Source: Bacteroidota bacterium (GTDB taxonomy: Bacteria; Bacteroidota; Bacteroidia; UBA7662; CANHCV01). Taken from it: a stretch of 64,000 nucleotides of DNA. Shown piece after piece: positions 11,570 through 13,573 of this stretch. Each line of letters begins with the position of its first letter. Position 1 is the first letter of the stretch. The notes beneath the pieces are model-generated. The model made no database searches, was not told where the DNA came from, and saw only the letters and a list, made by a program, of their open reading frames with translations. Location: positions 124,001 to 188,000 of the forward strand of contig CANMVY010000001.1 of assembly GCA_947501265.1 (NCBI GenBank). Reading direction: 5' to 3'. The translations under genes were made by a program, and so were the position numbers.

Positions 11570-12421
11570 ATGCACAACCAAAACAAAATTTTTCGGGTAT
11601 TGCAATTGATTCAGTTATTGCAAGAGCAACCGAATGCCATTTCTCAGATTGCAGAATCTTTGGAAGCTACGGAACGAACGGTTTATCGTTATTTGGATTT
11701 ACTGCGGGAATTGGGTTATGTCATTCGAAAAGACCTGGTTGGGAGGTATTTTATTCATCATCCCGACAAATCGTACTTTTCACCGGAAGAAGTTCAATTC
11801 TTGTTGCAACTGCTTCAAAATACGGCTAAAAAAAGCATCTTAGCCCGAGCTGTTTTAAGAAAAATTACGGTTCGATTTGTTGATCAAGACCACGACATTG
11901 AAGACCATCACTTCCGATCGGGCCACAATTTGGTTCAATTGATGGAGGCCATTAAAAAGAAAAGGCAAGTTGAATTGATCAATTACCATTCGGCAAGTTC
12001 AGAAAGCATTTCCAACCGATTGGTTGAGCCGATTCGATTTACCCCCGACCTTCAGTGCATTGCCGCTTATGAAATCAAATCCAAAACAACCAAGTATTTC
12101 CATCTTAATCGCATAGAAGCTGTACGAATTTTGGATCAGCGCCTCAAGCACGAAGTCCTTCACCGCTTTGTTGCCCCCGATTTATTTGGATTCAACGAAA
12201 CGGGAGTAGAATTGTCCATCGATTTGGCGCTTACGTTCAAAGCGCAAATTTGGATTCGAGAGGCCTATCCGCAATCGGCGTCCATGATATCAGAAATTCA
12301 AAAAGGGAAGTTTTATCGATTAATAACCACCATTTACGACGAACGTCCGCTACGTCGTTTGATGGAAGGATTGCCGGAAGACATCTTTTTTTATTCGGAT
12401 TGGAAGAAAGGTAAAAAATAA
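11570..12421 (+). CDS. HTH-WYL transcriptional regulator
   Basis: A 283-residue regulator. Residues 8-60 form an HTH_11-type winged helix (QEQPNAISQIAESLEATERTVYRYLDLLRELGY). The middle and C-terminal parts match the WYL ligand-sensing domain: a first strand LMEAIKKKRQVELINYHSAS, VEPIRFTPDLQCIAAYE and FHLNRIEAVRIL, then a WCX-like tail. WYL proteins sense nucleic acids or nucleotides and often control defence or DNA-damage genes. Nothing next to it is an obvious defence operon; the neighbours are a broken RAYT and mazEF. TACGTTTA directly before the ATG resembles a -7 element, but I do not rely on it. Confidence 0.92.
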   Translation: MHNQNKIFRVLQLIQLLQEQPNAISQIAESLEATERTVYRYLDLLRELGYVIRKDLVGRYFIHHPDKSYFSPEEVQFLLQLLQNTAKKSILARAVLRKITVRFVDQDHDIEDHHFRSGHNLVQLMEAIKKKRQVELINYHSASSESISNRLVEPIRFTPDLQCIAAYEIKSKTTKYFHLNRIEAVRILDQRLKHEVLHRFVAPDLFGFNETGVELSIDLALTFKAQIWIREAYPQSASMISEIQKGKFYRLITTIYDERPLRRLMEGLPEDIFFYSDWKKGKK

Positions 12422-12447: not shown

Positions 12448-13005
12448 ATGTCGGAAAAATTTCAAAATAAATATCGTAATGGCACTTTTCGTGCACAATG
12501 GTGGGATTATGGATGGAATGCCGCCTATTTTATTACGATTTGCACCCAAAACCGAGAAAATTTTTTTGGCCACAAAGAAAACGGTAAAATGATTTTATCA
12601 AAAACCGGTGAAATCGCTGCCGCCTGGTGGAATGACATACCCAATCATCATCAATTCGTTGAATTGGGGAAATTTGTTATCATGCCCAACCATATTCACG
12701 GTATTTTAATCATCAATAAACCCAACATGGTAGGATCAGGGCAATCGAACCCGGTAGGATCAGGGCATGCCCTGATCCTACCGGGTCCCGGCACAAAACG
12801 ATTTCAAAATATCGGAAAAAATACCGTTTCATCCATGGTGTTATCGTATAAATCTGCCGTTACCAAATACGCCAACCGATTGGGATATCCAAATGGATGG
12901 CAAAAATAGTTTCACGAACGGATTATTCGCAACGATGAGGAATTTCAACGGATTACTAATTACATCATTGCAAATCCCCAAAAATGGGATGAAAATTCAA
13001 AGTAA
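12448..13005 (+). pseudogene. REP-associated tyrosine transposase (RAYT/Y1_Tnp), interrupted by an in-frame TAG
   Basis: The first 153 codons encode a Y1-type HUH transposase: NGTFRAQWWDYGWNAAYFITICTQNR, the HUH motif in FVIMPNHIHGILII, and a C-terminal SSMVLSYKSAVTKYANRLG. Translation meets TAG at 12907-12909 just after NGWQK. The same frame then continues without a further stop as FHERIIRNDEEFQRITNYIIANPQKWDENSK and ends with TAA at 13003. That tail is exactly the normal RAYT C-terminus, so one nonsense change has split the gene. The HUH active site and first part are intact. A GC-rich insert (about residues 94-115) is encoded by a palindromic repeat. Confidence 0.85.
12729..12786. repeat. 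REP-like palindrome inside the RAYT coding sequence
   Basis: A perfect 38-bp palindrome spans 12749-12786 (arms ACCCGGTAGGATCAGGGCA and its complement). A direct extra copy of the 15-mer GGTAGGATCAGGGCA lies at 12729-12743, 24 bp (eight codons) before the copy at 12753. The inverted copy is at 12768-12782. All copies are read in frame as VGSGQSNPVGSGHALILPG. RAYT enzymes normally bind REP palindromes placed outside the gene. Confidence 0.9.
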
Positions 13006-13013
13006 AAAGAAGA

Positions 13014-13337
13014 TCAATCCACAAAAATCTCCCGAATAATTTTCTTGCATTCCTTCATCTCTTTTTCCGTCAGTCTCCCCAATTTTTTTATGGCTCGCCG
13101 CTGATCAATCGTTCTTATTTGATCCAAAACCACCCACACTAATTTGCATTGTAAAATAACTTGCAGCCGTGTTGGAAAAGGATGATTCTGTGTCGTCATC
13201 GGGGCAATGGTGACCGTTTTTAAGGATTGATTCATCTCGTTGGGAGAAAGTACAACACAAGGTCTCGTTATTTTAATTTCGCTACCCTGGGTCGGATCTA
13301 AATTCACCAAAATGATTTCGTATTGGTTTAATTCCAT
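13014..13337 (-). CDS. mazF: MazF/PemK-family toxin endoribonuclease
   Basis: A 107-residue protein of the PemK/MazF fold: it opens with QYEIILVNLDPTQGSEIKITRPCVVLSPNEMN, where the conserved arginine and the PTxGSE turn form the catalytic face. It continues TVTIAPMTTQNHPFPTRLQV and VVLDQIRTIDQRRAIKKLG. MazF toxins cut single-stranded RNA at short motifs. The start overlaps the upstream antitoxin gene by 10 nt, the usual coupled order with the antitoxin first. It ends 9 nt from the RAYT remnant on the opposite strand, so the module may have arrived or been retained in an unstable spot. Confidence 0.92.
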   Translation of the reverse strand: MELNQYEIILVNLDPTQGSEIKITRPCVVLSPNEMNQSLKTVTIAPMTTQNHPFPTRLQVILQCKLVWVVLDQIRTIDQRRAIKKLGRLTEKEMKECKKIIREIFVD

Positions 13338-13573
13338 TCCTCGAAATTTTCATCATCAAACACATCACCCATCAATTCTTCATTTCGCTGAATCAGATCT
13401 ACAGATTCAAAGGCTTCTTTCCAACCTTTCCGAGGATTAGCGATGGGCCTAAAAACGATTTGAGTAGGCTCCTCCACAAGTTCAAGTTTTTCCCCAATTT
13501 GATATTTTTCCAAAATCGATTTCGGAAGACGTACCCCTTTTGAATTTCCAATTTTTATCACTGATACTTTCAT
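13328..13573 (-). CDS. mazE: MazE/AbrB-family antitoxin
   Basis: An 81-residue protein. Residues 1-48 are a SpoVT/AbrB swapped-hairpin DNA-binding domain (VIKIGNSKGVRLPKSILEKYQIGEKLEL). The acidic tail (FESVDLIQRNEELMGDVFDDENFEEWN) would wrap and block MazF. It is the first gene of the pair and should autorepress; three TTTGTAAT half-sites overlap its promoter. Confidence 0.92.
   Translation of the reverse strand: MKVSVIKIGNSKGVRLPKSILEKYQIGEKLELVEEPTQIVFRPIANPRKGWKEAFESVDLIQRNEELMGDVFDDENFEEWN

Follow-up and report, generated by a model that had tools for sequence, protein, structure and literature searches.

The 38-bp palindrome inside a transposase gene in the 64,000-nucleotide stretch of DNA that we analysed (the window) is probably part of a degenerate REPtron: a RAYT gene resembling TnpAREP subclass 2.4 that carries its lineage's double-foot GTAG REP in frame, within a disordered loop of the protein (probability about 0.8). 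This reading is built on direct results about the anatomy of the palindrome, its homology to other REPs, its location in the loop (as modelled on an intact orthologue), its single-copy status, and the truncation of the gene.

The RAYT gene ends before its tyrosine motif

The features of the gene and of the palindrome are as follows.

12448..12909, + strand: RAYT/TnpAREP-type HUH transposase ORF, 153 aa, ending at the TAG at 12907-12909
12682..12699, + strand: HUH motif MPNHIH, from the sequence and from alignment A1
12729..12743, + strand: 15-bp REP arm GGTAGGATCAGGGCA, the upstream member of a pair of direct copies spaced by 24 bp
12749..12786, no strand: perfect 38-bp palindrome, in which the perfect arms extend a 28-bp double-foot REP by 5 bp at both ends (ACCCG/CGGGT)
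12754..12781, no strand: double-foot REP GTAGGATCAGGGCATGCCCTGATCCTAC (double-foot definition from PMC6006769)
12907..12909, + strand: premature TAG, directly after WQ(K) and upstream of the Y motif
12910..13005, + strand: remainder of the RAYT frame, left untranslated; it contains the Y motif NYIIANP and finishes at the regular TAA

Judged by its sequence, this is a RAYT-type HUH transposase gene. Past the TAG, the frame stays open through FHERIIRND..ITNYIIANP to the TAA at 13003-13005. The tyrosine codon of the Y motif (12961-12963) is downstream of the TAG; the catalytic tyrosine in the Y---NP motif is absent from the translated protein, and YIIANP is encoded only past the stop. In an alignment with 4ER8, the window tyrosine corresponds to Y115, the established catalytic residue in E. 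coli TnpAREP. Because the stop precedes this motif, the 153-aa product is expected to be dead, that is, it should be inactive.

The most similar intact homologue that we found is a 207-aa RAYT from another genome (L037, in G081), which is 61-66% identical to the window gene (61% over residues 4-203, in an alignment that crosses the window TAG). Against NCBIfam REP_Tyr_transpos, the read-through frame scores 61.5 bits, which is below the cut-off of 80 bits; all 29 members of alignment A1 match this family. The window gene also falls short of the cut-off for Pfam Y1_Tnp, which probably reflects a domain that is interrupted by the insert and lacks its end.

We ruled out that TAG is recoded as an amino acid: the genome encodes both RF1 (PAT) and RF2 (SPF), and TAG also terminates other ORFs in the window, which implies that the TAG at 12907-12909 is a genuine stop. 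A single-base error in assembly or sequencing could be behind this lone stop. As it stands, the window gene is a degraded, not an active, member of the TnpAREP/RAYT lineage. The initial annotation of this DNA overlooked both the early stop and the single-copy status of the palindrome (see below).

Anatomy of the palindrome

The two arms of the palindrome (12749-12767 and 12768-12786) are 19 bp each and fully complementary, with no spacer. The 15-mer GGTAGGATCAGGGCA occurs at 12729-12743 (+), 12753-12767 (+), and 12768-12782 (-), and the direct copies are spaced by exactly 24 bp. These coordinates agree exactly with the initial annotation, which placed in the RAYT frame a palindrome of 38 bp and, 24 bp away, a third copy of the 15-bp core. 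Perfect arms of at least 19 bp have a chance expectation of about 3e-6 for the whole 64-kb window. No further match to the 15-mer, with up to two mismatches, was found elsewhere in the window (mean in shuffled sequence, 0.03). The palindrome is the longer of two perfect hairpins in the window with arms of at least 11 bp. The other one, at 961-1002, has 18-bp arms, a 6-nt loop, and a T-rich distal arm, and it resembles a usual terminator.

The palindrome and the third arm copy are all translated in frame within the ORF at 12448-12909 (peptide NMVGSGQSNPVGSGHALILPGPG), and the first direct copy (12729..12743) is probably a tandem duplication of eight codons. Both the GTAG foot and the palindromic stem of a REP element are present in GTAGGATCAGGGCATGCCCTGATCCTAC, which has a double foot. 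By homology to its dispersed relatives, the 28-bp core is a GTAG-footed REP. The initial annotation had called the palindrome REP-like and the likely target of the gene. The first part stands, but a gene that has lost its tyrosine motif cannot now act on the palindrome.

In four of 20 double-foot REPs within RAYT genes (the window's, at 12749-12786, and those in L076, L078, and L227), perfect pairing runs 5-8 bp beyond the feet, and the extended arms enter flanks that are unrelated between genes. The other 16 have an extension of 0 or 1 bp. Some of the REPs at other places in these loci are extended too, 6 of 53 by at least 7 bp. A 5-bp extension has a chance of about 1 in 1000, and arm extensions are commoner than chance allows. 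A candidate explanation for them is that the hairpin folds back and is copied.

The palindrome is at a single locus in its genome

The initial annotation proposed a search of the genome for further copies. There are none outside the gene: across the 2.33-Mb window genome (G000), the palindrome is found at a single locus, and matches elsewhere with two mismatches are at chance level. REPs are described as repetitive and mainly extragenic, and in G000 this one is neither, with a single intragenic locus. Nor do REPs flank the RAYT gene, as there is no other hairpin nearby with arms of at least 11 bp and no flanking GTAG/CTAC hairpin pair. Because the genome has no dispersed or flanking copies, the use of the palindrome as a target by the window RAYT is unsupported.

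The same genome has a second RAYT (L007, G000:C7:84309-84644) with an intact tyrosine motif. It carries its own, different in-frame GTAG double-foot hairpin (GTAGGGACGAACACATAGGTTCGTCCCTAC), and no dispersed copies of that hairpin were found in the genome. During the search for a second REP we also saw a long imperfect hairpin with repeated AACACGGGTAGG units (L142, G000:C1:378786).

The window RAYT is flanked by a WYL-domain regulator on one side and a MazF/MazE-type toxin-antitoxin pair on the other (11570-12421, 13014-13573). We looked in near genomes for an empty insertion site via the WYL neighbour and an AlkB-like neighbour, and none could be demonstrated. The WYL neighbour has no close orthologue in the five genomes G001-G005 (about 30% identity), and the match to the AlkB-like neighbour in G001 spans residues 1-88 only.

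The same stem family in other genomes

The closest orthologue (L037, an intact RAYT) has GTAGAGACAGGGCATGCCCTGTCTCTAC at the homologous site. Of 396 genomes from the phylum, 6 contain the more general pattern GTAGNNNCAGGGCATGCCCTGNNNCTAC, the window's among them. The other five genomes have AGA or AAA where the window has GAT, with both arms altered together. In two of them (G333 and G234) the pattern lies outside RAYTs, and in G244 it is in frame within an oxidoreductase gene. Exact GTAGGATCAGGGCATGCCCTG is found in two Bacteroidetes records, outside RAYTs and in both cases as a single-foot form ending in GACC, and GTAGGATCAGGGCATGCCCTGACC is intergenic in two Bacteroidetes records. Other genomes hold dispersed members of the CAGGGC stem family. 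For example, G624 has 15 REP sites: one inside a RAYT, one on each side of that RAYT, and most of the others outside convincing genes. The dispersed copies in G624 are identical to the copy within its RAYT.

Three genomes (G000, G081, and G533) have their sole real REP copy inside the RAYT. (A second match in G081 is non-palindromic and lies within another ORF; G533 has no second match.) That several genomes have the REP only inside the RAYT suggests that it is inherited there as part of the gene.

Some other occurrences are worth recording. Four IMG/VR viral contigs (L047, L048, L049, and L050) carry GTAGAGACAGGGCATGCCCTGTCTCTAC between ORFs or at ORF ends. In L048 and L050 it is at the same site, and in L047 the REP foot itself provides the stop codon of a 266-aa ORF. 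The L228/L039 RAYT (L228 is at G356:C1:557500-560500) has a five-fold expanded GTAGAGACAGGGC half-unit (VETGHAVETGHA...) with a stop after the insert, and is another decayed RAYT.

The insert in other RAYT genes

We surveyed 65 RAYT genes, mostly from the same class. A palindrome with arms of at least 9 bp lies between the HUH and WQ motifs in 40 of these, and it has double feet in 20. Among the double-foot genes, the GTRG foot is in phase 0 in 13, in phase 1 in 7, and in phase 2 in none. In other words, the foot is read as GTA/G or GT/AG and never as G/TAG, as expected if a TAG were to terminate the protein. The palindromes are concentrated in one part of the gene: for the first 36 genes, we found 32 in the HUH-WQ segment (7.5 kb) versus 4 in the remaining 12.7 kb.

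Aligning the RAYT orthologues reveals the insert, as the initial annotation had anticipated. Its length varies, and the orthologues L009, L013, and L034 do not have it, so this segment is not ordinary protein sequence common to all. The annotation had named two results that would count against it; the genome does indeed hold no further copies, but the segment is not an ordinary part of every orthologue.

In a tree that was built without the insert, the five RAYTs with the CAGGGC stem, including the window's, form a clade (support 97/99). The stem type changes three times on this tree, as compared to a mean of 9.4 and a minimum of 6 in 300 shuffles. In these sequences, then, stem type tracks RAYT phylogeny.

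In an AF2 model of L037, the core has pLDDT above 90 and the insert (residues 106-136) has pLDDT below 50. In this model of the intact orthologue, the insert lies in a disordered loop that follows the HUH strand and precedes the next helix. The best match to the L037 fold in the PDB is 4ER8 (TnpAREP with a REP hairpin), with a Foldseek identity of 18%.

Probable origin and fate of the intragenic REP

In intact relatives, the protein would recognise the GTAG foot and the hairpin on single-stranded DNA and promote multiplication of the REP. A REP within the gene would travel along with it as a ready-made substrate for the gene's product. The frame stays open because the REP is confined to the two phases where GTAG yields no TAG codon. 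In the window genome, a 24-bp unit was presumably duplicated in tandem and a nonsense codon removed the tyrosine motif (we infer the order of these events, as we do binding and mobilisation). The REP may never have spread in this genome, or its copies may have been lost. What remains would be a gene-borne REP fossil, in a system that is dead or dying.

A more specific version of this account is tentative. Rather than a stray insertion, the palindrome might be resident in the gene as a REP seed that is inherited with the protein that recognises it and is kept even where no other REP survives. Fold-back copying would keep the arms perfect, make the double feet, and sometimes copy the flank, which would explain the extensions of 5-8 bp in 4 of the 20 cases.

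It is fairly unlikely that the palindrome is a chance by-product, with dispersed REPs occasionally inserting into any gene, the RAYT loop tolerating them, and the intragenic REP having no role for the RAYT. The loop is predicted to be disordered, and REPs do occur in frame in unrelated genes: many cases are described in PMC3733652, and in G244 a REP of the same family (L036:1501-1528) is translated in frame in a gene for a Tat-type oxidoreductase, just past the signal region. However, chance insertion does not fit with stem type tracking RAYT phylogeny, and with the sole real copy in the RAYT, G000, G081, and G533 hold no current stock of REPs from which an insertion could come.

We consider it still less likely that the palindrome is a regulatory hairpin that folds in the mRNA and tunes or terminates RAYT expression, with selection keeping the arms matched. 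The predicted RNA fold is very stable (-45.1 kcal/mol, z -5.3), and the three arms permit two mutually exclusive hairpins, but any perfect palindrome folds equally well, and an mRNA hairpin needs neither GTAG feet nor a stem that turns over with the protein. Also, there is no match to an Rfam family and no T-run. Least likely of all is that the gene is not dead and that the 153-aa protein works as a non-catalytic DNA-binding derivative, as the intact frame before the stop and the retained HUH, WQ, and helix C would allow: the last helices and the tyrosine are missing, the sequence beyond the stop can still be recognised in frame (consistent with a recent loss), and the window branch is longer, at 0.55 versus 0.18 for L037 (which fits relaxed constraint).

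With the degenerate REPtron as our preferred reading, the window exemplifies a unit made of a transposase gene and its likely DNA target, and it shows that such a unit can outlast both the activity of the enzyme and the dispersal of the repeat. If the palindrome is indeed a resident seed, then the REP specificity of each RAYT could be read directly from the stem in its gene sequence, and the co-evolution of RAYTs and REPs would be easy to test.

Comparison with known systems

In-frame REPs within tnpAREP genes of subclass 2.4 were published in 2018 by Quentin et al. (PMC6006769). The window gene shares with this subclass the HUH and WQ motifs, a variable insert between the HuH and Y motifs, and an intragenic, in-frame double-foot REP of the form GT[AG]G...C[TC]AC. 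The subclass motifs are NH[IFV]H, WQ, and YIxNNP; the window gene has NHIH and WQ, and beyond the stop its YIIANP deviates from YIxNNP at one position (L088 also has YIIANP, and L037 has YIVSNP). The variable insertion of subclass 2.4 between beta 3 and helix C, which is able to hold an in-frame REP, is present as well. Given these motifs and this architecture, the window gene is a class 2 TnpAREP that looks most like subclass 2.4. It differs in that a stop removes the Y motif, that there are no flanking REPs and no other REP copy in the genome, and that the arms run 5 bp past the feet and are accompanied by an extra tandem half-copy.

The intragenic GTAG/CGTC REPs and the Rickettsia palindromic elements (PMC3733652) are also short palindromic repeats that are translated in frame, and such repeats in other genes have been known for longer. 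In the window, in contrast, the gene that holds the repeat is that of the REP-associated transposase, and the site is found again in orthologues. The window system has the fold, the alignment of the tyrosine motif, and the GTAG foot in common with the TnpAREP and REPs of E. coli (PDB 4ER8, subclass 2.2), but the E. coli REP stem is bulged (PMC8266576), the sequence identity is low (18% by Foldseek), and REPs inside the gene are not reported for subclass 2.2. In the TnpAREPs that have been tested, GTAG is important for cleavage, and recognition relies on GTAG together with the hairpin (PMC8266576).

In the TnpAREP literature that we consulted, we found no biochemically tested protein of subclass 2.4, and no mention of the sole-copy pattern, of a formal match between intragenic stem and RAYT phylogeny, or of the arm extensions. 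These last three are modest additions from a small sample. Overall, the window case is a new, decayed example of the published in-frame REP arrangement.
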